64,000 nucleotides of DNA, taken from assembly GCF_030345095.1 (NCBI RefSeq), contig NZ_CP128360.1, positions 6,324,001 through 6,388,000 on the forward strand, given 5' to 3'. The notes under the pieces were generated by a model, which was given only the letters and a program-made list of their open reading frames with translations, searched no databases and was not told where the DNA came from. This document shows, piece after piece, positions 5,654 through 61,190 of the stretch; position 1 is the stretch's first letter, and each line of letters begins with the position of its first letter. Made by a program: the position numbers and the translations under genes. The DNA comes from Solwaraspora sp. WMMA2056. GTDB lineage: Bacteria > Actinomycetota > Actinomycetes > Mycobacteriales > Micromonosporaceae.

Positions 5654-7266
5654 CCGAACCCGTCGAGGTCGAGGGCGTCGAGCTTGCCGACCGGCGGGTA
5701 GTCCTGGTCGGCCAGCACCTCGGTGGGCAGCTCAGCGTCGTCGTAGAGGTCACCGAGGTCGACCGTGGCCGGCTCGGTCCCGAGGTTGTGCAGGAAGAGC
5801 ATGGTGCCGCTGTGGTCGTCGGCACGGTGCACCAGGATCCCGGGCGGGGTGGGGACGTCGACGTGCGTACAGGAGCCGGCGCCGACCTCCGGGGCCTCCC
5901 GCAGCGTACGGATCATGCGCTCGAACCAGCCGAGCAGTGAGCCGCGGTCGCGGCGTTGCGCGGTGACGTTGACCGTGCCGTAGCCGTACTCGTCGTCGTC
6001 GATGATCGGGCGGACCAGGTCGGCCGGGTCGGCAGTGGAGAAGCCGGCGTTGCGCAGCGACGACCACTGCATCGGGGTACGGATCGCCTCCCGGCCGTCC
6101 AGCGACAGGTCCTCGCCCATGCCGATCTCCTCGCCGTAGCGCAGCACCGGGGTGCCGCGCAGGGTGAACTGCATCGAGTACGCCAACTCGATGCGCCGCC
6201 GGTCGTTGCCGAGCATCGGGGCGAGCCGGCGGCGGATGCCGCGCCCGTACAGCCGCATGTGTTCCTCGGGGCCGAACTGGGCGTACACCTCCTCGCGTTG
6301 GGCGGCGGTCAGCCGGGACAGGTCGATCTCGTCGTGGTTGCGCAGGAACGTCGCCCAGGAGGCACCGGCCGGCAGCGCCGGGGTGTCGCGCAGCGCCTCG
6401 ATGACCGGCTCCGGATCCTGGCGGGCCAGGGCGAGCAGGAGCCGGCCGTTGAGCATGAAGTCGAAGAGCATGTGCAGCCGGTTGGCCGAGCCGCCGGCGT
6501 CGGCGAAGTAGTCGACGAGCTCGTCCGGTTCGACATTGGCCTCGGCGAGCAGGACCGCGTCGCCGCGTCGCCACTGGACGTGCTGGCGCAGGTCGGTGAG
6601 GACGTCGAAGTCCTTCGGCGACGACGGCTGGCCCGGGGTGGTGTGCTCGATGATGAACGGCACCGCGTCCATCCGGAACCCGGCGACGCCGAGCTGCAGC
6701 CAGAACGACATGATCTTCTTGAGCTCGGCGCGGACCTGCTCGTTGCGGATGTCGAGGTCCGGCTGGAACCGGTAGAACCGGTGGTAGTACCAGGCCTTGG
6801 CCCGCCGGTCGTAGCTCCACGTCTCGTGCTGCTCGCCGGGGAAGACCATGCCCTGGTGCCGGTCGCTGGGCTCGGTGTCGGACCAGACGTACCAGTCGCG
6901 GTACGGCGAGTCCGGCGACGAACGGGCCGACTGGAACCACGGATGCTGGTCGGAGGTGTGGTTGACGACCAGGTCGATGATCACCCGGATGCCCCGGTCG
7001 CCGGCCTGGTGCAGCAGTTCGGCGAAATCACCCAGAGTGCCGAAGCGCGGGTCGACGTTGTAGAAGTCGGTGACGTCGTAGCCGTCGTCTCGGCCGGGCG
7101 ACGGGTGGACCGGGTGCAGCCACAGGCAGGTCACGCCGAGCCGGGCCAGGTAGTCGAGGCGACCGATCAGCCCCGGGATGTCGCCGATCCCGTCCCCGTT
7201 GGAGTCGGCGAAAGTGTCGATATCCAGACAGTAGACGACCGCCTTGCTGAACCACCGGTCGTTCAT
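5584..7266 (-). CDS. GH13 alpha-amylase family enzyme, trehalose-synthase-like
   Basis: 560 residues with the whole GH13 barrel. The start is 'VVYCLDIDTFADSNGDGIGD'. Conserved region I is 'DLVVNHTS', the nucleophile Asp is residue 200 ('GFRMDAVP'), the acid/base Glu residue 242 ('LLAEANVEP') and the third acid Asp 312 ('FLRNHDEID'). The N-terminal 'GDGIGDIPGLIGRLDYLARLGV' pattern is shared with trehalose synthases and oligo-1,6-glucosidases, so it probably rearranges or hydrolyses small alpha-glucosides in the cytoplasm (no signal peptide). ATG 7266 has GGAG 7 nt upstream; the open frame to 7512 has no homology-like sequence. Divergent from the LacI regulator, its likely regulator. Confidence 0.85.
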   Translation of the reverse strand: MNDRWFSKAVVYCLDIDTFADSNGDGIGDIPGLIGRLDYLARLGVTCLWLHPVHPSPGRDDGYDVTDFYNVDPRFGTLGDFAELLHQAGDRGIRVIIDLVVNHTSDQHPWFQSARSSPDSPYRDWYVWSDTEPSDRHQGMVFPGEQHETWSYDRRAKAWYYHRFYRFQPDLDIRNEQVRAELKKIMSFWLQLGVAGFRMDAVPFIIEHTTPGQPSSPKDFDVLTDLRQHVQWRRGDAVLLAEANVEPDELVDYFADAGGSANRLHMLFDFMLNGRLLLALARQDPEPVIEALRDTPALPAGASWATFLRNHDEIDLSRLTAAQREEVYAQFGPEEHMRLYGRGIRRRLAPMLGNDRRRIELAYSMQFTLRGTPVLRYGEEIGMGEDLSLDGREAIRTPMQWSSLRNAGFSTADPADLVRPIIDDDEYGYGTVNVTAQRRDRGSLLGWFERMIRTLREAPEVGAGSCTHVDVPTPPGILVHRADDHSGTMLFLHNLGTEPATVDLGDLYDDAELPTEVLADQDYPPVGKLDALDLDGFGYRWIRLRLNSHHSPITGSTSGM

Positions 7267-7392
7267 GCCCGCACTCCGTCGCCGCCGACCGCACCGGAGG
7301 AACCGCTGTTCACGCTCTGCCTGCCCATGACCGGTCAGCTTCTCCAGCGGCCGCGGTCGGCAAACTCTCCGGCGGACCATCGCGTGACAGGT

Positions 7393-7402
7393 GGCAATTG
7401 CC
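7393..7402. promoter_or_regulatory. 10-bp palindrome in the GH13/LacI divergent region
   Basis: GGCAATTGCC is a perfect palindrome in the 235-bp region between the divergent GH13 gene and lacI-type gene. It is the only obvious dyad there. LacI-family operators usually carry a central CG step, which this lacks, so assignment as the operator of the adjacent regulator is weak. Confidence 0.25.
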
Positions 7403-7501
7403 CGACCTGGCCGGCCGTCGCGCTCCGTACCCGGTCTGTAATCATCGTGCGGGTTCCGTGGTCGACCCCGGCGGTCGACGACAGGTGAAGAGGGCGAGGA
7501 C

Positions 7502-8503
7502 ATGGCGACCATCTACGACGTCGCGCGACAGGCGAGGGTCTCCCCGGCCACCGTGTCCCGGGTCGTCAACGGCCACGCCAACGTCGACCCGGTGCTCGCC
7601 GACCGGGTCCGGCAGGCGATGCGGGAACTGGACTACCGGCCGAACGCGCTCGCCCGCAACCTGCGGCGCAGCCGGACGACACTGTGGGCGGTGCTGATCA
7701 GTGACATCGGCAACCCGTTCTTCACCGCCCTGGTCCGTGGCGTGGAGGACGTCGCCCAGCAGGTCGGCTACTCCGTGGTGCTGTGCAACACCGACGAGGA
7801 TCCCGCCAAGGAGGCCCGCTACCTCAACGCCGTCCTCGCCGAGCAGGTCGCCGGGGTGCTCATCGCCCCGTCCGGCGCGGCCGGTGACCTGGACCGGCTG
7901 ACCGCGCTGCGGGTGCCGTTCGTGGTGATCGACCGACAACTGCACGGCGGGCGGATCGACACCGTACTTGTCGACAACGAGCACGGTGCCCGGCTCGCCA
8001 CCGCCCACCTGGCCGAGTCCGGCTACCGGCGGATCGCCTGTATCACCGGCCGGCGGGGCGTCTACACGGCCAGCAGCCGACTGGCCGGATACCGGCTGGC
8101 CCTGGCCGACGCCGGGCAGCCGTACCGGGAGGACCTGGTCCGGTACGCCGACTTCCGCGCCGACGGCGGCTACCAGGCGATGGCCGACCTGCTGCGGATG
8201 TCGCCCCGGCCGGACGCGCTGTTCGTCGCCAACAACCTGATGACCGTCGGCGCGGTCGAGTGCCTGGTCGACCAGGGCGTCGACGTGCCGACGGAGATGG
8301 GCGTGGTCGGCTTCGACGATCTGCCGTGGGCGCATCTGGTCCGGCCGGCGTTGACCACCGTCACGCAGCCTACGTACGAGTTGGGTGAGGCCGCCGCCCA
8401 CCTGCTCGCCGCCCGGATCGCGGACCCGGACCGGGCCGCGACCACGGTGACCCTGCCGACGAAGCTGCAGGTACGGGAGAGCTCGACCCGCGCCGGGGTG
8501 TGA
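7502..8503 (+). CDS. LacI-family transcriptional regulator
   Basis: 333 residues. The N-terminal helix-turn-helix is canonical ('TIYDVARQARVSPATVSRVVN'), followed by the hinge helix region ('RPNALARNLRRSRT') and a periplasmic-binding-protein-like sugar domain with 'ISDIGNPFFTALVRGVED' and 'VGFDDLPWAHLVRPALTTV'. A GAGGACATG context gives a good start at 7502. It is a DNA-binding repressor or activator released by a small sugar. It is divergent from the GH13 gene, so maltose/trehalose-type ligands are plausible; the ligand cannot be read from the sequence. Confidence 0.92.
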   Translation: MATIYDVARQARVSPATVSRVVNGHANVDPVLADRVRQAMRELDYRPNALARNLRRSRTTLWAVLISDIGNPFFTALVRGVEDVAQQVGYSVVLCNTDEDPAKEARYLNAVLAEQVAGVLIAPSGAAGDLDRLTALRVPFVVIDRQLHGGRIDTVLVDNEHGARLATAHLAESGYRRIACITGRRGVYTASSRLAGYRLALADAGQPYREDLVRYADFRADGGYQAMADLLRMSPRPDALFVANNLMTVGAVECLVDQGVDVPTEMGVVGFDDLPWAHLVRPALTTVTQPTYELGEAAAHLLAARIADPDRAATTVTLPTKLQVRESSTRAGV

Positions 8504-8555
8504 GGCGGGCGGCCAGCGGGTACGGCAAGGACCCGCACGAGCACCCGGGAGCGCC

Positions 8556-9221
8556 ATGGCCGTCACCGTCGACACCCCACCTGAGCAGGCGGGTGGCCTG
8601 ACCGGCTGGGTGGCCGGCGTCATCGAGCGCCTCGGCGAGATCGGCGTCGGACTGCTGGTGGCGCTGGAGAGTGTGATCCCGCCGATCCCCAGCGAGGTGG
8701 TCCTGGCGATGGCCGGCTACCTGGCCAGCCAGGACCGGGTCGACCTGGTCTGGGTGTGGCTCGCGGCGACCGCCGGGTCGCTGGCCGGCGCGCTGCTGCT
8801 CTACTGGCTGGGCGCGGCGATCGGCGAGCCCCGGCTGCGGCGCTGGTTGGACAAGCTGCCGCTGGTCGACCCGGAGGACCTGGACTCCGCCGACCGTTGG
8901 TTCGACCGGTACGGACGCTGGGCGGTGCTGTTCGGGCGGATGGTGCCGATCGTCCGGAGCCTGGTCTCGGTGCCGGCCGGCGCCGACCGGATGCCGTTGA
9001 CCCAGTTCAGCGTCTTCACCACGCTGGGCAGCGGGGTGTGGAACGCGTTGTTCGTCGGCGCCGGATTCGCTCTCGGCTCGCAGTGGCAGCAGGTCGAGCG
9101 GTACAGCCGCTGGTTCGACATCGCCGTGATCGTGCTCCTCGGCGGGTTGGTCGTGCACTGGGTGGTCGGGCAGGTACGACGGCGGCGACGCCGGGCCGCC
9201 GACCGTGACCGGGCGTGCTGA
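8556..9221 (+). CDS. DedA-family membrane protein
   Basis: 221 residues of the DedA/VTT superfamily (membrane lipid flippase/scramblase-like). Family signatures are 'LESVIPPIPSEVVLAMAGYL' with the E-x-x-x-P-x-P-x-E motif, 'LYWLGAAIGEP', and 'RYGRWAVLFGRMVPIVRSLVS' with the conserved F-x-R-x-(V/I)-P-x-x-R. Several membrane helices and a basic C-terminal tail are visible. It follows the LacI gene by 52 bp on the same strand, but a functional link is not evident. The 56-bp palindrome lies 85 nt after its stop. Confidence 0.9.
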   Translation: MAVTVDTPPEQAGGLTGWVAGVIERLGEIGVGLLVALESVIPPIPSEVVLAMAGYLASQDRVDLVWVWLAATAGSLAGALLLYWLGAAIGEPRLRRWLDKLPLVDPEDLDSADRWFDRYGRWAVLFGRMVPIVRSLVSVPAGADRMPLTQFSVFTTLGSGVWNALFVGAGFALGSQWQQVERYSRWFDIAVIVLLGGLVVHWVVGQVRRRRRRAADRDRAC

Positions 9222-51288: not shown

Positions 51289-52602
51289 TCAGCTCAGCCG
51301 GATCCGGTCACCGGAGTGGTCGAACAGCAGCAGCCGGTCCAGGTCGACCGCGACCGTCACGGAGTCACCCGGCCGGGCCGATGCCGGCATCGGCACCCGG
51401 ACCACCAGATCGCTGTCGTCGGTGTCCGGCCCGGCCGGGTCCGGCTCGTACACCGGGTAGAACCCGTACTCGGTCCGAGCCGTCGCGGGCGGCTCCCGAC
51501 GGCGCTGCTGCGGGATGATCCGGCCGATCGTCTGGCGCAGCTGCCGGGGCGGCGGATCCTCGGCCAACAGCTCCGCCAGGCGTACGTCCGGGTCGGGCAG
51601 ATCCAGCTGCGACTGCGCCGCGGCACCGGGCAGCCCGCCGGTCGTCACCCGTACCAGGGCCTCGTGGCCCAGGTTCTCGACCGCCCGGACCGTACCGCGC
51701 AGCGTCGCAGTGTCCCCCGCCGCGACCAGCCGCACCGCGTCGGCGCGCAACGCCACCACCGCCCGTTCGGTGTGGTGCGCCGCGAGGCCCGCCACCCGGG
51801 GGTCGTCCACCGGCAGGTCCAGGGTCTGCCCGCCGAGGTCGACGACGATCCGGTCCGGCTCGGCGTACACCGCACCCTGCAGCAGGCTGGTCCGTGGCGT
51901 GCCGAGGAACGCGGCGACGAACAGGTTCACCGGGTCGCCGTACACCTGGGCTGGCGGCCCGGCCTGTTGCAGCCGGCCTCGGCGCAGCACCGCCAACTGG
52001 TCGGCCATGGTCAACGCCTCGGTCTGGTCGTGTGTCACGTAGACGGTGGTGACCCCGTGCCGACGGGCCAGCCCGGTCACGTCCGCCCGCAACTGCGCCC
52101 GCAGCCCGACATCCAGGTTGGACAACGGCTCGTCGAGCAGGAACGCCTTCGGCTCGCGGATGATCGCCCGCGCCATCGCGACCCGCTGCCGCTGCCCGCC
52201 GGACAGTACGGTGGGCGAGCGGTGCAACTGCTCGGCGATGCCCAGCTCGGCGGCGACCGCGCGGATCCGCTGCTCACTCACCGACCCGTGCCCCATCCGT
52301 AGCGGAAAGACGATGTTCTGCGCGACGGTCAGGTGCGGGTACAGCGCGTAGTCCTGGAAGACCATGGCGACCTGGCGGCGCTGCGCCGACCAGTGGTCGG
52401 CGATCTCGCCGTCGATCAGCACGTGCCCGGAGGTCGGCGTCTCCAGCCCGGCCACCAGCCGAAGGATCGTCGACTTGCCACAGCCGGTCGGGCCGAGCAG
52501 CACCATGAACTGGCCCGGCTCGATCGCGAAGCTGACCCCGTCGACGGCCACGGTGCCGTCATCGAAGACCTTCGTCAACCGGTCGGCGGCGATGGCGACC
52601 AC
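51289..52602 (-). CDS. ABC transporter ATPase, MalK/UgpC type
   Basis: 437 residues. Walker A 'GPTGCGKST', signature 'LSGGQRQRVAMARA' and Walker B 'FLLDEPLSNLD' with 'VTHDQTEA', plus a C-terminal regulatory OB-like domain ('VVALRADAVRLVAAGDTATL') as in MalK/UgpC/MsiK. No permease or binding-protein gene is adjacent, so it may be a shared energy source for sugar importers (MsiK-like) or belong to the M50 cluster upstream. GTG 52602 with AGGAGGTGATC 4 nt upstream; GTG 52611 is inside the ribosome site. Confidence 0.92.
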   Translation of the reverse strand: MVAIAADRLTKVFDDGTVAVDGVSFAIEPGQFMVLLGPTGCGKSTILRLVAGLETPTSGHVLIDGEIADHWSAQRRQVAMVFQDYALYPHLTVAQNIVFPLRMGHGSVSEQRIRAVAAELGIAEQLHRSPTVLSGGQRQRVAMARAIIREPKAFLLDEPLSNLDVGLRAQLRADVTGLARRHGVTTVYVTHDQTEALTMADQLAVLRRGRLQQAGPPAQVYGDPVNLFVAAFLGTPRTSLLQGAVYAEPDRIVVDLGGQTLDLPVDDPRVAGLAAHHTERAVVALRADAVRLVAAGDTATLRGTVRAVENLGHEALVRVTTGGLPGAAAQSQLDLPDPDVRLAELLAEDPPPRQLRQTIGRIIPQQRRREPPATARTEYGFYPVYEPDPAGPDTDDSDLVVRVPMPASARPGDSVTVAVDLDRLLLFDHSGDRIRLS

Positions 52603-52605
52603 GGC

Positions 52606-52616
52606 GATCACCTCCT
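52606..52616 (-). promoter_or_regulatory. full Shine-Dalgarno of the ABC ATPase gene
   Basis: Minus-strand AGGAGGTGATC pairs completely with the 16S tail and sets GTG 52602 as the start. Confidence 0.75.
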
Positions 52617-52695: not shown

Positions 52696-53511
52696 TCAGC
52701 GTAGTTCCTCCGGCAACCGCAGGTTGTCGCCGAGCAGCCCGCCGCCGACCGGCGGAGTGGCCGGCGGGCCGACAGCGGCGGGCGGGGTCGGTGTCGACGG
52801 TGCCGGCTGCGCCGAGGGTGGCTGCTGAGTGACGCTGCGGTCGAGCCAGCCGTCACCGTCGTCGTCGTAGGCGACTGTCTCGAAGTGGCCGTCACCGTCG
52901 ACGTCGTAGGCAGCCGACTCCACCAGGCCGTCGGCGTCGTCGTCGCGGCCGACGAAGTCGACCCGGCCGTCGCCGTCGTGGTCGACGAGGATGTCCACCC
53001 CGCCGTCGGCCCGGCCCCGCACCAGGTGCTGGTCCCATTCGCCGTCACCGTCGACGTCGACCCGGGTCCGGTAGCCCTCCGGGACCGCCGGCTCGACCGG
53101 CTCGACCGGCGCCGACCCGAACCCGGCGGGCTCCACGGGGGCCGCGCCGAACTCAGCGGAGGGCACCGCCGGTGCCGGGCCGAGGCCGCTGACCGCCGGG
53201 TCCGCCGCGCCGAACCCGCTCGCCGGTGGTTGTGCCCCGCCGAACCCGCTCACCGCCGACCCGATGTCGCCGAAGCCGTCCAGCATGCCGGTGAGCGGGC
53301 TGAAAAGGCCGAAGGCGCTGGACTGGTTGGCCCGGGTCTCCACCGCCGCCGTCGCGCCGGGCGCGGCGTCACCGGCCTGGGTCGCCAGCAGCTCACGTTC
53401 GTCGGCGGTCAGCTGGTAGCCGGCGAGCGCGCCGACCGGGTCGGCGGCGAGCCGGGCCGCGAACCCGGCGTCGGTGAGCAGCCGTTCGAGCACGGTGTCG
53501 AAATCACTCAT
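52696..53511 (-). CDS. protein with RiPP-leader-like N-terminus and five DxDxDG loops
   Basis: 271 residues. The first 45 ('FDTVLERLLTDAGFAARLAADP', 'LAGYQLTADERELLATQAG') match the style of NHLP/Os1348-type leader domains. A Gly/Phe/Ala-rich low-complexity segment follows (repeated 'SGFG'). Then come five EF-hand-like calcium loops: 'VDVDGDGEWD', 'VDHDGDGRVD', 'RDDDADGLVE', 'YDVDGDGHFE', 'YDDDGDGWLD'. A Pro/Thr tail ends it. It may be an exported calcium-binding surface protein or a precursor handled by the M50 protein upstream. ATG 53511 overlaps the previous stop by 1 nt. Confidence 0.75.
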   Translation of the reverse strand: MSDFDTVLERLLTDAGFAARLAADPVGALAGYQLTADERELLATQAGDAAPGATAAVETRANQSSAFGLFSPLTGMLDGFGDIGSAVSGFGGAQPPASGFGAADPAVSGLGPAPAVPSAEFGAAPVEPAGFGSAPVEPVEPAVPEGYRTRVDVDGDGEWDQHLVRGRADGGVDILVDHDGDGRVDFVGRDDDADGLVESAAYDVDGDGHFETVAYDDDGDGWLDRSVTQQPPSAQPAPSTPTPPAAVGPPATPPVGGGLLGDNLRLPEELR

Positions 53512-53726
53512 CAGTCCAGCTCCGGCATGGGTACGGGCTGCGGCCGGGGCCGGCAGGTGCCGCACTGCAACGCGTCCTCCACCACCAGGCCCTCAGCCCG
53601 GCCCCGGCGTTCGGAGCGGTGCACCTCCAGCAGGTACGGGCCGAAGCGGGCGTGGTCCTCACACACGCCACGGCCGCAGAACCGGCAGCCGCCCCGCGCC
53701 GGCTTCGGGCAGAACCAACACAGCAC
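53511..53726 (-). CDS. Cys/His-rich mini-protein of the M50 cluster
   Basis: 71 residues. Zinc-finger-like spacing: 'MLCWFCPKPARGGCRFCGRGVCEDHARFG' (split, C-x2-C-x8-C-x2-C-x4-C-x2-H) and a late C-x2-C ('QCGTCRP'). It may bind one or two zinc ions. It is 13 bp after the M50 gene and coupled to the next gene (TGATG). Probably an accessory or regulator of the cluster; no family assigned. Confidence 0.75.
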   Translation of the reverse strand: MLCWFCPKPARGGCRFCGRGVCEDHARFGPYLLEVHRSERRGRAEGLVVEDALQCGTCRPRPQPVPMPELD

Positions 53727-53739
53727 CTGTCATCTCCAC

Positions 53740-56700
53740 TCAGCTGAGGTTCGTCGAAGCCGCCGTCGCCGAGCAGCCGGCGACGGTGACTGTTGCAGAC
53801 AGTGTCGCCCTACGCCCGCTCTGGTCAGTCGCCACCGCCTCGATGTCGAGGGGCCCACCCTCGTTCGGCTTGCCGGAGTACCGGAACGGGCCGACCTCAC
53901 CGTAGTACGTGTCCCCGTCCCGCTGCATGGGCGTGCCCCCGGACACGAAGCCGGTCCACGACAGCGCGACAGAAACCCCTTCGACCTGGCCGGACACCCG
54001 CACGGCGGCGAACGCGATGGTCGAGTTCGGCCCTCCGCAGGGATTACCATCGGCCGCCTGTCCGATCTCCCCGCGCGGCTGGTTGACCCAGGCGATCTCG
54101 AGTGACGGCGGTGGCGGCGTAGTCGGCGGTGGCGACGAGGGCGGTGGGCTGGACGGTGGCGGGCTGGTGGACGGCGGTGCCGACGTCGGCGGCGGGCTGG
54201 ACGGCGGGCCCGTGGTGGGCGGCGGAGCCGGCGTCGACGGGCGGGGCGTCGGGCTGGCCGTCGGCGTCAGACCGGGCACCGGAAGCTGACTGACGGTCGG
54301 GCTCGGCGCCGGGGTCGGTACCGGCTGGCTGGTGGCGGAGAGATCCGGCGACGGGCTCTGCACCGTCGGTGCCTCCGGTGTCGTACTGCCGCCGGGCACC
54401 GGGGCGCTCGGGGTACCGCCGGGTGGGTCGATCGGGGAGCCGTCGCCGCAGCCCAGCTCCTCACCGGTGGCCCGCTGCCGGACGCCGTCACGGCGGACCT
54501 CGCCGGTCGAGGTGCGGACGGTGCCGGCGTTGACCGCGAACCACGCCTCGCCCCGGTTGGCCACGATCGTGCCGCCGCTGTCGATGGTCAGCGCCAGCGG
54601 TCGGAAGGCCCCGGAGGTGCTGGCGGTGTCCGCGAGGATCCGGCCCCGGTCCAGGGTGAGTTCCCCGCTGGGCGCGACCGGTCGGGTCCCGCTGCTGGTC
54701 AACGTACCGATCTGTGCCTGCGATCCCGCGCACAGCACGCTGGCCGCGCCGCCCCGGAAGACCAGCTCCCCGGTGGACCGTGACTCGACCTCGACGCGGT
54801 CGCCGGCGGCGACGTACGTGGCCGCACCGTCACGCAACATGACGACCCGGCCGGTCACGGTGTGCACCTCGACGGTGCCCCGCTCGGCGCGCAGCAACGC
54901 CCGGTCGGCCGGCATCTCCGCCCACGCCGGGCCGGGGACCAGGTTGCCGCCGGTGATCAGCAACGCGAACAGCAGCAGGAGCAGGACCAGCCACCAGAGG
55001 CGGCGTTCGAACCGACGGTCGATCCGGTCGTCGACGGTGACCGGCGGCGGCCCCGGCGGTGCGGCCAGCGGCGGGTAGTCGGCCGGCGGGTGGGCCCCGC
55101 TGGCCGGGGCGCCGCCCCGGACCGCCGCCGCGCCGCTTGCCGCCACCTCGTCGGGTGCGGCGCCGAGCAGCAGCGGCAGCCCGGCGACCGCCGGCAGCTG
55201 CCACAGCCGCGCCGGTGTGCGGGTCGTCGCGACCACGTCCGGTGGTTCGGCGCCGACCGGACCGATCATCGTGCCGCGCCGCAGCTCGGTGCCGTCCATC
55301 AGGGCGATCACGCCCGATTCGAGGACCACCGCGTCGTACGGGCCGGACAGCCGCACCGGCGCGCCGGGCGGCAGCGACACCGGCCGGGCCCGGGACACCA
55401 GGCCGAGCCGGTCCTCCATGGTCAGGTCGGCCAGCGCGGGTGTCTCGGCGAGCAGCGCCTCGGCGGCGGCCCGGTCGGCTGGCGGCGGCCCCGGCAGTGG
55501 GCCGACGACGGTGGCGACCGCCGACGACGGCACCGCGAGCAGCGTGGTGCCGGCGGTGTGCCAGGTGAGCGTGGCTGGGGTGCCGGTGAGCGCGCCGGCC
55601 AGGCCGACCAGCCCACCGGGGCCGAGTCGTTGCCGTACGGTGCCGGCCGGGTCGCCCGGCGCGCGGCCCTCCACCGCGCCGTCGACGACGACGAACACGG
55701 CGGGCTGGGCGGCACCGGCGACGACCAGTTGCTCACCGGTGCGCGGATGCACCCAGCGGGCCTGCGCGGCCAGCCGGTTCAGCGCGCTCGGTGACAGGGT
55801 CCGCAGGGCGCTGGCGCGCAGCGCGTCCAGCCGGCGCGGCAGGTCCGCTGTCTGCCGTCGCTGCGCGAGTGCGCGCCGCAGCCGCCGTCCGAGCCGGGCC
55901 AGCCCGCCGAACGCCAGGTAGACAAGTGGGGCGGCCAGCCCGGCGAGCACCGCCGCCAGCAGCAGCCGGGCCGGCCAACCGGAGCGCCACAGCCCGAGGA
56001 CCAGACCGGCGACCCGGTCGGTCCAGATCCGCCAGAACAGGTTGACCGCGATGACCAGCCAGAGCACGGCGAGCATGCCGTACAGGGCGACCAGTCGGCC
56101 TTCCCGGTCCAGCGTCGCCCAACGCGGGCCACGGCGGCGCAGCCGCCCGGTGACGTACGCCAGCCCCCGGGCCCGCAGGTTGGGGATCTCCAACCAGTCC
56201 ATCAGCAGGTAGTAGCCGTCGAGGGCGAGGAACGGGTTGAGGTTGAACAGGGCGTTGAGGTACCAGGCGAAGGCGAGTTTGAACGTCCACGGCGCGGCGG
56301 CGGGGAACAGGACCCCGACGAGTCCGGCGACCCCGGCCAGGACGAGCCCGGCGGCCGGGCCGGCGGCGGTGGTGATCAGCCGGGACCGGCGGCCGGCCAT
56401 CCACACGTCGGTGGTGTCGACGAAGACCGACGGGATGCCGAAGTAGATCAGGAAACCGGCGGCGGGCACCCGCCGGCCGGCGTGCCTGGTGGCCAGCGCG
56501 TGGCCGAGTTCGTGGCAGGCGAGGGCGACGACGTTGAGCCCGAGCAGCACCGCCGCGCCGGCCACGTACGAGCCGTTGGTGAGGAACACCGCCTGCTCGC
56601 CGCGCCACCAGGTCCAGCAGAAGGCGAGGAACCCGGCGAGCGCGACGACCCCGAGCACGCCCGCCGCGACGCGGGTGAACAGAAACCGGCCGCCGCCCCG

Positions 56701-57234
56701 GTAGAGGGCACCGATCAGCGGGTCGACGTCGGCCAGCACGGTACGTCGGCCCCGCGCGACGGCCAGCAGGGTCCGGCCCAGCCGCAGCGGCCAGGGGCGA
56801 CGGTGCACCCGGTCCAGCGGGCGGAACGCGTCCACCGGCAGCTCGGCGAGCATCCGGTTGCCGGCCAGGTCGGCGACGACCCGGGTGACCTGGTCGGGGG
56901 CGAGCCGGCCGGCGATGCGGGCGAACTCGGCGACCAGTCGGGCTACCGTACGGGTGCCGTCCATCAGCTGGGCCAGCTGCCACTCGTGCGGGGTGAGCCG
57001 CAGGTAGCAGGCACCGCCGCCGTCGGGCGAGCGGAGCATCACGTACGGCATGCCGCGGACCGAGACGAGTTCGACGTTCTCGATGCCGGTGCGCAGCACG
57101 GGCCGGGCGCGGGCCGGGTTGAGCCGTTCGACGACGGCGGCCCACAGGCCGGCGTCGGCGGGGGCGACCGGCTGGCCCGGTGCCCGACCGGCCAGGGCCT
57201 CCCACACGTTCATCCGGGTCTCGACGACCGTCAC
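53740..57234 (-). CDS. PqqD-like/M50 metalloprotease/cNMP-like/FecR-like membrane protein
   Basis: 1164 residues. Residues about 50-135 resemble a PqqD/RRE domain ('YVMLRSPDGGGACYLRLTPHEWQLAQLMDG'-type, split), a peptide-recognition fold. The M50 intramembrane protease follows: H-E-L-G-H at 241-245, 'FNLNPFLALDGYYLL' near 330. Residues about 480-590 look like a cNMP-binding fold. A late membrane helix ('LWWLVLLLLLFALLITGG') precedes a FecR-like region ('TVEVHTVTGRVVMLRDG'), a Pro/Ser/Thr linker and an Ig-like end. It would recognise and cleave or export a peptide. GTG 57234, GGAGGA 7 nt upstream. Confidence 0.85.
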   Translation of the reverse strand: MTVVETRMNVWEALAGRAPGQPVAPADAGLWAAVVERLNPARARPVLRTGIENVELVSVRGMPYVMLRSPDGGGACYLRLTPHEWQLAQLMDGTRTVARLVAEFARIAGRLAPDQVTRVVADLAGNRMLAELPVDAFRPLDRVHRRPWPLRLGRTLLAVARGRRTVLADVDPLIGALYRGGGRFLFTRVAAGVLGVVALAGFLAFCWTWWRGEQAVFLTNGSYVAGAAVLLGLNVVALACHELGHALATRHAGRRVPAAGFLIYFGIPSVFVDTTDVWMAGRRSRLITTAAGPAAGLVLAGVAGLVGVLFPAAAPWTFKLAFAWYLNALFNLNPFLALDGYYLLMDWLEIPNLRARGLAYVTGRLRRRGPRWATLDREGRLVALYGMLAVLWLVIAVNLFWRIWTDRVAGLVLGLWRSGWPARLLLAAVLAGLAAPLVYLAFGGLARLGRRLRRALAQRRQTADLPRRLDALRASALRTLSPSALNRLAAQARWVHPRTGEQLVVAGAAQPAVFVVVDGAVEGRAPGDPAGTVRQRLGPGGLVGLAGALTGTPATLTWHTAGTTLLAVPSSAVATVVGPLPGPPPADRAAAEALLAETPALADLTMEDRLGLVSRARPVSLPPGAPVRLSGPYDAVVLESGVIALMDGTELRRGTMIGPVGAEPPDVVATTRTPARLWQLPAVAGLPLLLGAAPDEVAASGAAAVRGGAPASGAHPPADYPPLAAPPGPPPVTVDDRIDRRFERRLWWLVLLLLLFALLITGGNLVPGPAWAEMPADRALLRAERGTVEVHTVTGRVVMLRDGAATYVAAGDRVEVESRSTGELVFRGGAASVLCAGSQAQIGTLTSSGTRPVAPSGELTLDRGRILADTASTSGAFRPLALTIDSGGTIVANRGEAWFAVNAGTVRTSTGEVRRDGVRQRATGEELGCGDGSPIDPPGGTPSAPVPGGSTTPEAPTVQSPSPDLSATSQPVPTPAPSPTVSQLPVPGLTPTASPTPRPSTPAPPPTTGPPSSPPPTSAPPSTSPPPSSPPPSSPPPTTPPPPSLEIAWVNQPRGEIGQAADGNPCGGPNSTIAFAAVRVSGQVEGVSVALSWTGFVSGGTPMQRDGDTYYGEVGPFRYSGKPNEGGPLDIEAVATDQSGRRATLSATVTVAGCSATAASTNLS

Positions 57235-57978: not shown

Positions 57979-59526
57979 TCACGGCGCCTCGGCCAGGGTC
58001 GCCGTCACGGTCTGCTCCTCGCCGTCACGCTGGTAGGTGATCTCGATCTGGTCGCCGACCGCGCCGGCCTGCACCGCCGAGACCAGGTCGTCGGCGTCGT
58101 TGACGATCGTGTCGCCGACCCTGGTGACCACGTCGCCCTGGGCGATGCCGGCACGGTCCGCCGGGCTGCCCTCCTCGACCGCCGCGATCATCGCGCCGCC
58201 GCCGTCCGCAGGGGTCACGTTCACCCCGAGGTACGGGTGGCTGATCTCTTCGCCGGCCATCAGCGCCTCGGCGACGTCCTTGGCCTTGTTGCTGGGGATC
58301 GCGAAGCCGACGCCGATGTTGCCCTCGCCCTGGCCGGAGGTGGCGATCGCGGTGTTGATGCCGATCACCTCGCCGTTGGTGTTGACCAGCGCGCCGCCGG
58401 AGTTGCCCGGGTTGATCGGGGCGTCGGTCTGCAACAGTCCGGACATCGAGGTGACCTGGCCGCCACCACCACCGAACGGGTTCTGCTGCTGGCTGCCACC
58501 GACCTGGATGGTGCGGTCCTGCGCGCTGATGATGCCGGCGGTCACCGAACCCTGCAGGCCGAGCGGGCTGCCCAGGGCGAGCACCGTGTCACCGACCCGC
58601 ATGCTGCTGCTGTCGCCGAACGTCGCCGGAGACAGCCCCTCGGTCTCCTCGACCTGGATCACCGCCAGATCGGTCCGGGCGTCGGTGCCGATCACCCGAC
58701 CCTGCGTGGAGCTGCCGTCGGCGAAGTAGACCTCGACCGCCCCGCCCTGGGCGGACTCGACGACGTGGTTGTTGGTGAGGATTAAACCCTCGGTGTTCAG
58801 CACCACGCCCGAGCCTTCGCCCGACCCGGTGGAGATCGACACGACGCTGTCCTGGACCGCGTCGGCGATCTCGGCGAGCGACGACCGGTCGACCACCGGT
58901 GCCGCTTCGCCGCTGCCACTGGTGCGGACCGTCGGCGACGACGAGCTGCCGTCGAAGGCCGCGACCACTGCCCCACCCACGACGCCGGAGCCGAGCATCA
59001 ACGCGAGGACGACCGCCGCGCCGGCGACGATCCGACCGATCCGGCGGGGCCGTCGGCCGTCGGCGGCGGCCTGCGCGGCCGCGCCGGGCGGTGGTGTCCA
59101 GATGGTGTGCCCTGCCTGTCCGTAGCCGTGGCCGGCGTACGGGTGGCTCTGGTTCCACTGCTGCCCGTAGATGACCTGGGCGTACCCGGGGGCGTAGGGC
59201 CCGGCGGCCGGTGGTCGGCCGGCCGACGGCGTCGCCTGCCCGGCGGCCGGCGCCTGCCCGGCGGGCGACGACGGTCCGGCGGCCGGCGGGGCGGTGACCG
59301 GGTGGTCGGCGACGGCGTCGGCCGGTGGGGCCTGCTGGCCGGCGTACGGCTGGTTGGTGGGCGTCCAGTCGCTGGACTGCCGCTCGGCGGCACCCGCTGC
59401 GGCACCGGCGGTAGCGCCGGCGGCGGTGCTACCGGGCTGCCCGGCGGCGGGGGCCTGCCAGGGGCTGGCCGGCGGTTGAGCCTTGTCCGACGGCTCCGCC
59501 GGCGGCGTGGTCTCGTGCTCGCTCAT
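57979..59526 (-). CDS. HtrA/PepD-type serine protease with PDZ domain
   Basis: 515 residues. A long cytoplasmic Pro/Ala/Gly-rich N-terminus, one membrane anchor ('IGRIVAGAAVVLALMLGSGVVG'), the trypsin-like domain with His in 'LTNNHVVESA', Asp in 'ARTDLAVIQV' and Ser in 'NPGNSGGALVN', then a PDZ domain ('YLGVNVTP', 'GSPADRAGIAQGDVVTRVG'). It degrades or refolds damaged envelope proteins outside the membrane. ATG 59526 is chosen; ATG 59592 overlaps the kinase stop (ATGA) and would add 22 residues. Third gene of the RR-HK-HtrA operon. Confidence 0.93.
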   Translation of the reverse strand: MSEHETTPPAEPSDKAQPPASPWQAPAAGQPGSTAAGATAGAAAGAAERQSSDWTPTNQPYAGQQAPPADAVADHPVTAPPAAGPSSPAGQAPAAGQATPSAGRPPAAGPYAPGYAQVIYGQQWNQSHPYAGHGYGQAGHTIWTPPPGAAAQAAADGRRPRRIGRIVAGAAVVLALMLGSGVVGGAVVAAFDGSSSSPTVRTSGSGEAAPVVDRSSLAEIADAVQDSVVSISTGSGEGSGVVLNTEGLILTNNHVVESAQGGAVEVYFADGSSTQGRVIGTDARTDLAVIQVEETEGLSPATFGDSSSMRVGDTVLALGSPLGLQGSVTAGIISAQDRTIQVGGSQQQNPFGGGGGQVTSMSGLLQTDAPINPGNSGGALVNTNGEVIGINTAIATSGQGEGNIGVGFAIPSNKAKDVAEALMAGEEISHPYLGVNVTPADGGGAMIAAVEEGSPADRAGIAQGDVVTRVGDTIVNDADDLVSAVQAGAVGDQIEITYQRDGEEQTVTATLAEAP

Positions 59527-59588
59527 AGGTTCAGCTTGCCCCTCGGCTCTTTGCTCCACCTGTTTTCCCGCTGAGCCTTTGCTGAGAG

Positions 59589-61190
59589 TCATGATTCGTC
59601 ATCGTCGATCAGTCCTCCGGTCGCCAACGGTAGCCGTACCCGGAAGGTGGCCCCTTCGCCCGGCGTGCTCTCCACCTCGACGGTGCCGGAATGCGCGGCC
59701 ACCAGGGCGGCCACGATCGCCAGCCCGAGGCCGGTGCCGGACGGCCGCTCCGCGCTACGGGTCCGGGCGGCGTCGGCCCGGTAGAACCGCTCGAACACCC
59801 GCTCGGACTGCTCCGGGGTGAGCCCGGGACCGTCGTCGGCCACCTCGACGGTGGCGAAGCCGGGCTCCTCGGCCCGCAGCCGCAGGGTGACCGTGGCGTC
59901 GGCCGGGGTGTGGTTGATCGCGTTGGCCATCAGATTGCCGATCACCTGCCGCAGCCGGGCGTCGTCGCCGAAGACCACCAGCGTGCCGGCACCCGGCCCG
60001 ATGTCGAGCTCGACCCGGCGCTGCGGGTCCACCACCCGCGCGGCCTGGACGGCGTCGCTGGCCAGCACGGACAGCTCGACCGGGGCCAGGTCGAGTGGCC
60101 GTTCCCGGTCCAGCCGGGCCAGCAGCAGCAGATCCTCGACCAGCAGGCCCATCCGGGCGGCCTCGTCCTCGATCCGGCGGACCAGCCGGGCCGCGTCCTG
60201 CGGCGAGGCGGCCGCCGCGCCCTGCCGGTACAGCTCGGCGAAGCCGCGGATGGTGGTCAACGGGGTCCGCAGCTCGTGCGAGGCGTCGGCGACGAACTGC
60301 CGCATCCGTTCCTCCGACCGGCGCGCCCGGGCCTCGGAGTACTGCGCGGCCACCGCCGCCTCCCGCGCGGCCGACTCGGCCATCCGGGCCGCCCACTCGG
60401 AGTTGGCCCGTGCGGTGAACGCCGCTTCGATCTGGGTCAGCATGGCGTTGAGGGTGCGTGACAGCCGACCCAGCTCGGTCTGCGGCACCTGCGCCCCCGG
60501 CTCCGGATCGGGCACCCGCCGGGTCAGATCCCCGGCCGCGATCGCCGACGCGGTCTGCTCGATCTCCACCAACGGTTTCAGGTTGGTCCGCACGATCGCC
60601 GCGCCGGCCAGCGCCAGCAGCACCAGCACCCCGCACCCGACCATGGTGTCGATCCAGACCAGCCGGCCGACGGCCTTGTCCACGTCGGCCAGCGACTGCC
60701 CGACGGCGATGACCTGGCCGGTCGGCAGCGACGCGTACAGCATCCGCCACCGGGGCGAGCCGTCGCGGGCGTGCGCGGTGAACGGATCGCCCCGCAGCTG
60801 TTCGAAGCCGGCCAGGTCGGCGGGCCAGCGCGGCAGGTCGCTGCGGTCCAGCCGGTCGACGTCGTACCACGGGCTACTGGCCAGACCGTCACTGTCGGTC
60901 ACGATGACCAGGTAGTCGCTCGGCGGCTGGACCTTGAGCGTCTCCGGCTGCTGCCAGTACGGCAGATCCTGCAGCAGGTCCTGCGCGTTGCCGATGTCGG
61001 CGCGCAGTTTCGTCACGTAGTCGCGCAGATCCGCGTCGATCTGGTCGATGAGGTGGCTGCGCAGGAACACCGCAGTGCTGACGCTGATCACCAGCAGCGC
61101 CGTGAAGACCAGGCTGAGCACGGCCGCGACCAGCTTGACCCGCAGCGGTACGCCGCGCAGCCAGCCCATCATCGGCGGCGGCGGTTTCAC
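59589..61190 (-). CDS. sensor histidine kinase, MprB-like
   Basis: 533 residues. Two membrane helices (about 20-42 and 180-202) flank an extracellular sensor; HAMP ('VRTNLKPLVEIEQTASAIAAGDLTRRV'), the H-box 'FVADASHELRTPLTTIRGF', N-box 'NLMANAINHTP' and G-boxes 'DDGPGL', 'GTGLGLAIV' complete it. It autophosphorylates on His and passes phosphate to the coupled regulator. GTG 61190 overlaps the regulator stop (GTGA). With HtrA it matches the MprAB-PepD envelope-stress layout of mycobacteria. Confidence 0.94.
   Translation of the reverse strand: MKPPPPMMGWLRGVPLRVKLVAAVLSLVFTALLVISVSTAVFLRSHLIDQIDADLRDYVTKLRADIGNAQDLLQDLPYWQQPETLKVQPPSDYLVIVTDSDGLASSPWYDVDRLDRSDLPRWPADLAGFEQLRGDPFTAHARDGSPRWRMLYASLPTGQVIAVGQSLADVDKAVGRLVWIDTMVGCGVLVLLALAGAAIVRTNLKPLVEIEQTASAIAAGDLTRRVPDPEPGAQVPQTELGRLSRTLNAMLTQIEAAFTARANSEWAARMAESAAREAAVAAQYSEARARRSEERMRQFVADASHELRTPLTTIRGFAELYRQGAAAASPQDAARLVRRIEDEAARMGLLVEDLLLLARLDRERPLDLAPVELSVLASDAVQAARVVDPQRRVELDIGPGAGTLVVFGDDARLRQVIGNLMANAINHTPADATVTLRLRAEEPGFATVEVADDGPGLTPEQSERVFERFYRADAARTRSAERPSGTGLGLAIVAALVAAHSGTVEVESTPGEGATFRVRLPLATGGLIDDDES

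Follow-up and report, generated by a model that had tools for sequence, protein, structure and literature searches.

Three coupled genes on the minus strand of the window (a 64,000 bp stretch of the Solwaraspora sp. WMMA2056 genome), at positions 52696-57234, encode a 1164-aa membrane protease protein, a 71-aa mini-protein (MINI) and a 271-aa leader-tagged calcium-loop protein. This arrangement, noted in the original prediction, was confirmed, and we think it rather probable that they work together as a maturation unit in which an RRE-guided site-2 protease would release leader-tagged proteins. Leader peptides are commonly seen as handles for making small peptide products. That so compact a set of membrane protease, zinc protein and leader-tagged protein occurs in soil bacteria, and also in some organisms only distantly related to them, suggests that ordinary-sized proteins too are handled by the tagging and cutting familiar from peptide antibiotics. 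If so, leader-guided processing would extend to the maturation or surface display of a calcium-loop protein, and a large family of protease and zinc mini-protein pairs would gain a function; the cassette would also provide a leader and a matching protease suited to experiments in E. coli.

Domain architecture of the protease protein

The largest gene (53740-57234, minus strand) encodes an RRE-like domain, an M50 site-2 protease domain, a cyclic-nucleotide-binding (cNMP) fold, a transmembrane helix and outer beta domains. The RRE/PqqD-like domain (residues 44-137; 56824-57105, minus strand) was recognised from its AlphaFold model, a profile comparison with structure 3g2b and the ApyI RRE model. 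A winged helix built in the order three strands, three helices is the mark of the RRE/PqqD family, and this order was present in the model of residues 44-137, with strands at 52-57, 63-68 and 77-80 and helices at 82-89, 97-108 and 113-125 (block pLDDT 84-96). The profile of the region matched the PqqD structure 3g2b over profile positions 2-72 with an E-value of 0.17, and the ApyI RRE model scored 21.9 bits against the 1164-aa protein. Pfam PqqD (PF05402) gave no match to the window protein at E≤1, and an hhalign comparison of the region with the PqqD domain of the same genome, with a single sequence as template, gave none either; in two relatives from a shorter protease class PqqD scored 19.8 and 17.5 bits, below the cut-off of 23.4. 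Sequence evidence for counting the window protein among PqqD/RRE domains is weak.

The M50 site-2 protease domain (residues 185-420; 55975-56682, minus strand) carries the motifs HELGH (241-245), NLNP (331-334) and LDG (338-340), of which HELGH and LDG supply the zinc ligands within membrane helices, as in site-2/M50 proteases. Hydrophobic segments were predicted from hydropathy at residues 189-207, 222-240, 286-304, 381-399 and 424-442, and the HE..H and DG residues were invariant in all 13 proteases compared from two classes. The protease profile matched the structures of MJ0392 (E 0.0085) and SpoIVFB (E 0.047), and PF02163 scored 20.8 bits, below its cut-off of 27.2. A cNMP-binding fold, with putative ligand binding, was found at residues 580-690 (55165-55497, minus strand), and a second, weaker PF00027 match covered residues 498-573. 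The outer part, which follows a transmembrane segment at 748-766, consists of a beta domain (778-915), a proline-rich linker and a second beta domain (1046-1154; 53773-54903 in all, minus strand). An RRE-like domain, an HELGH protease and a cNMP fold had all been proposed for this protein and held up, whereas the FecR-like and Ig-like parts proposed with them were not recovered by profile (no Pfam match at E≤1 in this region, modelled by AlphaFold as all-beta domains).

The leader-tagged calcium-loop protein and MINI

The 271-aa protein (52696-53511, minus strand) begins with an Os1348/NHLP-type leader (residues 3-45; 53377-53505, minus strand) that scored 41.3 bits against NF038399, above the curated cut-off of 40, and is thus a member of that family. 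The leader match recurred in all 25 orthologues (E≤0.01). The suspected likeness of this N-terminus to NHLP/Os1348 leaders was therefore upheld. Downstream of the leader lies a boundary motif, VETRANQSSAFGLF (residues 57-70; 53302-53343, minus strand), which reads R-x-[STN]-[KRMQ] in relatives. The "chloro" group of the motif shuffles (n = 22, 10 with the motif) includes three actinobacterial stray matches and truncated ORFs, and several of its members carry ERKSF or ERRSF in place of the motif. Residues V57, E58, R60 and G68 were invariant in 25/25 orthologues, and mean column identity in the orthologue alignment was 66% over the first 80 residues compared with 33% for the whole protein.

The middle of the protein is made up of successive G[FL]G-x-A/P repeats, with G[FL]G at residues 79, 89, 99, 109 and 130 (53113-53277, minus strand), and is followed by five DxDxDG calcium-loop motifs at residues 152-225 (52837-53058, minus strand). 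G[FL]G repeats averaged 3.6 per protein against 0.21 in shuffles, and two or more were present in 34 of 48 proteins; since the pattern used in the motif shuffles was picked after the sequences had been seen, these figures are descriptive and not a test. In L038 a protein related to the calcium-loop body, but with no leader, is encoded next to the same locus, so leader and body are separable modules. The 271-aa protein has no transmembrane segment by hydropathy, and the calcium-loop protein had no match in the PDB at E≤0.1. The leader profile gave six PDB matches at E≤5, the Os1348 structure not being among them; the top one, to OspA over the repeat region 58-75 (E 0.005), was judged spurious.

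In place of the short core peptide of a RiPP precursor, about 200 residues with five calcium loops follow the leader. The abundance of the repeats, and the existence of relatives with short precursors or repetitive bodies, would suit a RiPP proper, in which the G[FL]G-x-A/P repeats are core peptides that are modified by unlinked enzymes and cut free, with the calcium-loop domain as a carrier. We consider this improbable, as the three-gene cassette has no modifying enzyme, several orthologues lack the repeats altogether, and alignment quality is higher over the calcium loops than over the repeats.

The intervening gene (53511-53726, minus strand) encodes MINI, whose seven cysteines and one histidine (C3, C6, C14, C17, C22, H25, C55 and C58) predict that it is probably a zinc-binding protein; a FYVE/B-box-like cross-brace zinc finger is a candidate fold. 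The original prediction gave this protein no role, yet in genetic association no other partner follows the protease of this family so closely, MINI accompanying it in 28 of 32 orthologue loci.

Cassette boundaries and linkage

The cassette consists of three genes, with the neighbouring ABC ATPase gene (51289-52611) lying outside it. Profile searches found protease, MINI and leader all missing at 5/5 patatin loci from protease-less genomes, and the flanking neighbours on both sides persist where the cassette is absent: the RR-HK-HtrA ... patatin order was kept in three of the five (G036, G003 and G001) and rearranged in G010 and G022. Because these loci lack the cassette genes while some keep the flanks, the unit is confined to the three genes; the ABC ATPase was rejected as a member, being present in G036 without the cassette. 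The upstream SRPBCC gene was likewise set aside, since it lies near the cassette only in the window and in four loci of the same genus. An ARAGORN tRNA-Gly call at 59011-59094 (minus strand) lies inside the HtrA-like gene (57979-59592) and is probably false. Pfam and NCBI family profiles, applied to the three cassette proteins and SRPBCC, identified no modifying enzyme among the cassette proteins (other neighbours were read from ORF lists and by BLAST to the window genes), and no transporter belongs to the cassette. The three proteins had no PADLOC match at E≤0.1, so a defence system was discarded, and among open-licence papers no publication title naming this cassette was found.

An orthologous protease was present in 64 of 150 family genomes and a short-class protease in 22, with both in two. 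All 54 genomes with strong leader matches (>90 bits) carried the orthologous protease, none of the 86 genomes without this protease had such a match, and 50 of the 56 strong matches lay within 6.5 kb of the protease on the same strand. A further 36 matches were weaker; a short-class protease is linked to 14 of these and not to the other 22. G041 (51 bits) and G074 (29 bits) had one weaker match each without any protease match. Among 32 orthologue loci inspected closely, the leader gene lay downstream of the protease in 24; the expectation that the genes would be neighbours in related genomes thus proved correct, and it extended to a remote protease class and to another phylum. The original interpretation, with the leader protein as the target of the protease, finds partial support here and becomes broader.

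A search for hidden leaders in leaderless genomes returned 10 weak matches in eight genomes (E≤10), and the idea was rejected; of six of the matching loci, at least four had glycosyltransferases by eye, and none had a leader. In a class-wide sample, a relative of the RRE and protease was found in 27 of 296 genomes (E≤1e-20). Three loci (L057, L058 and L059) encode a protease relative of about 1030 aa in a different neighbourhood, with no MINI or leader nearby, and in G024 MINI and leader lie on another contig (L082), away from the protease relative.

Active-site loss in leaderless proteases

The catalytic H, E, H and D residues were intact in all 46 proteases with a leader gene and broken in 19 of 38 without one, for example as REYAR, HELAR or YELGH. 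The count was drawn from 89 distinct orthologue-class proteases (90 loci, one identical copy dropped), setting aside four leaderless loci at contig ends and one truncated leader-bearing protease. A tree of 86 of the 89 placed three active-site losses, none of them outside a single leaderless clade (32 rows, SH-aLRT 99); as independent losses are few and this clade makes up 35-38% of the branch length, the p-value for three losses is only 0.04-0.055. An independent-pairs test on the tree had too few pairs to be used. The active site is intact in 14 leaderless proteins of the same clade, and MINI is still present at 15 of the 19 broken loci.

We compared the retention of sites conserved in 31 other leader-bearing proteins between a leader-bearing sister group, leaderless proteins with an intact active site and leaderless proteins with a broken one (values in this order; ORFs below 950 aa were dropped and ten leaderless or remote loci left out by name). 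The M50 domain kept 97.6, 85.1 and 79.1% of its conserved sites, the RRE-like domain 99.8, 95.7 and 98.2%, the cNMP region 97.1, 95.2 and 96.2%, residues 601-745 92.6, 81.5 and 84.8%, residues 746-930 89.2, 81.1 and 85.0%, and the short linker 138-184 87.5, 65.7 and 81.7%. After leader loss, therefore, the catalytic domain relaxes most among the large regions, while the conservation of the RRE-like and cNMP parts suggests that they keep another job. Stretches outside these two parts drift as well in such proteins, to a smaller degree than the protease. As the RRE-like domain is kept even in leaderless, catalytically broken proteins, it must have another partner too and cannot serve this leader alone, so that the pattern both supports the substrate link and limits it.

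Proposed mechanism and comparison with known systems

The closest parallel is with the daptides, whose leader is removed by an RRE-fused site-2 protease, MpaP/DapP (PMC10036551). Both that enzyme and the window protein have an RRE N-terminal to an intramembrane site-2 protease, and the MpaP/DapP family NF041824 aligned over profile positions 26-349 of 379. However, the equivalog cut-off is 300 bits and the window protease reached 124.8, so it is not a member; it adds cNMP and outer domains and a MINI partner, its candidate substrate is a 271-aa calcium-loop protein, and no cassette protein matches a daptide-modifying enzyme. Membrane M50 proteases also finish RiPPs in the case of EpeP/YydH/LiaK (epipeptide) and TglG (pearlin), according to a review (PMC10885120); NF058609 matched window protease residues 229-351 (E 6.3e-11, below cut-off). 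The substrates of these enzymes are peptides, and the available text of the review mentions no RRE-cNMP architecture or MINI partner.

The leader domain is shared with the Os1348/Frankia_peptide precursors of the NHLP clan (NF038399, PF14407), above the NF038399 cut-off, whereas here about 200 aa with calcium loops follow it and PF14407 scored 23.4 bits against a cut-off of 48. The leader-gene neighbours described for Os17 are an acetyltransferase and a gluzincin-like protein (PMC7726476), in contrast to the site-2-type protease and MINI found here. The same report describes the Os1348 protein itself as a stable homodimer, which would fit an Os1348-type domain that is a mere helical dimerisation domain, the linkage arising because a surface-protein gene is regulated together with a membrane protease that has nothing to do with it. 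This seems very unlikely to us, because the linkage recurs in two phyla, unrelated bodies stand behind similar leaders and boundary motifs, and catalytic residues are lost only where the leader is absent. As the NF041824 cut-off is not reached, the protease is not the daptide equivalog and, with no short core and no modifying enzyme in the cassette, this is not a normal RiPP cluster either; the cassette is a variant of leader-guided RiPP processing.

NHLP leaders are reported to be folded and to dock on an RRE with their helix 1 and with a strand motif at the C-terminal end (MprE7-MprC, PMC12455567). This complex may serve as a model for docking of the window's leader, with the difference that its RRE belongs to a YcaO cyclodehydratase and not to a protease. 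For an RRE-guided protease releasing a leader-tagged protein, the RRE-like domain would recognise the NHLP leader and boundary motif (about residues 1-70) in the cytoplasm, the conserved VExR stretch perhaps corresponding in position to the C-terminal strand motif that docks on the RRE. By analogy with daptides, the membrane-embedded M50 domain would cut near the R-x-[STN]-[KRMQ]/FGLF stretch (FGLFSPLTGML), which would free the body of G[FL]G repeats and calcium loops. The cNMP-binding-fold domain might control cleavage, and MINI, from its genetic association, would be a partner of the protease. The original prediction had the M50 protein bind and cleave this leader: co-occurrence, the sites lacking all three genes and catalytic loss confined to leaderless loci favour it, and we infer both binding and cleavage from them.

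Related cassettes in other classes and in Chloroflexota

The short-class proteases share 30-38% identity with the orthologue class and carry an FHA domain (two were scanned; eight have it by alignment). Leader ORFs adjoin the protease in 11 of 22, as detected with the profile of the other class, the remaining 11 having no linked leader. Their leader proteins have long Pro-/Asp-rich bodies, in some of them with DxDxDG repeats, and a Gly-rich C-terminal segment. A Ser/Thr-kinase-like gene lies downstream at six of the eight loci read, and the FHA domain together with this gene would gate cleavage. Two 104-aa leader proteins with a RISKSG or RLSKSG motif (L084, 7624-7938; L085, 8232-8546) lie apart from the short-class protease that their genomes also encode and are possible stand-alone substrates. 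In a Nitriliruptoraceae MAG (L153) three leader proteins accompany protease and MINI.

Beyond the actinobacteria, we searched for MINI in 251 Chloroflexota genomes (42 positive) and fetched 30 loci by MINI alone, using a leader profile trained only on the actinobacteria studied here. Leader ORFs were found at six of ten loci with the protease compared with 0/20 without it (Fisher p 3.5e-4). Counting all loci gave 10/14 against 0/20, but this total includes L164-L166, which a protease search had led to, and L225, which was located by a leader match, so the 30-locus count is the fair one. MINI occurred without the protease in 20 of the 30. The three MAGs reached via the protease combine protease, MINI and small precursors; L164 and L166 together hold six complete precursors of 78-104 aa by gene call, carrying PEERKS. 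Genome-wide, leader matches fell inside the cluster in 4/4 cases in G443, 2/2 in G445 and 3/4 in G446; in G444 two of six had protease and MINI as neighbours, the other four being at the end of a contig with neither gene seen.

A RiPP-like cluster in Chloroflexota (L232, 3189-9325) encodes a P450, a TPR protein, an MbnB/TglH/ChrH enzyme (211 bits), a short precursor ending in AGCH, an RRE-M50-cNMP-AhpC/TSA protease and MINI. A second remote locus that resembles a RiPP cluster, L168 from the window's own class, encodes a precursor similar to Frankia_peptide (36 bits) together with an ATP-grasp-like protein (14.2 bits), both below cut-off, and the proteases of both loci contain two cNMP stretches and an AhpC/TSA domain each. 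ATP-grasp amidoligases were reportedly studied by Iyer in 2009.

A sensor-type domain is present in each class examined, though the kind differs: the window protein and the Chloroflexota proteases have a cNMP fold, the short class an FHA domain. This could point to signalling. Protease and MINI would then be a cNMP- or FHA-gated membrane module, with the leader protein as a regulated substrate or a regulator whose cut fragment signals and catalytically dead versions acting as receptors in some lineages. The short class has its kinase-like genes, the RRE-like and cNMP regions outlast the leader and the active site, and MINI is still there at most broken loci, all of which is in keeping with this idea. 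We nevertheless hold it to be unlikely, as in L232 and L168 the same protease and MINI have a short precursor for a neighbour, joined in L232 by a RiPP-modifying enzyme and in L168 by an ATP-grasp-like protein (a weak match). Returning to leader-guided release, a wider version can be offered tentatively: the cassette may be a general protein-maturation route in at least two phyla, of which RiPP clusters are one use. In it, the fusion of RRE, site-2 protease and sensor, with its zinc mini-protein, would use a shared boundary motif of the R-x-[ST]-K type to recognise NHLP-tagged proteins, from about 70 to about 800 residues long, and would release calcium-binding or repetitive bodies.

Among the Chloroflexota loci, L225, L233 and L244 encode leader proteins with repetitive bodies (AGRQAAGDDA, VRAGDDWKF and NSAEAL repeats) beside protease and MINI. 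In L246 and L251 (about 6500-8600) a MINI-like zinc protein lies in a protease-free context beside a ParA-like ATPase, as judged by eye, and in L246 a cNMP-binding-like protein, also recognised by eye, is encoded near the MINI-like gene.
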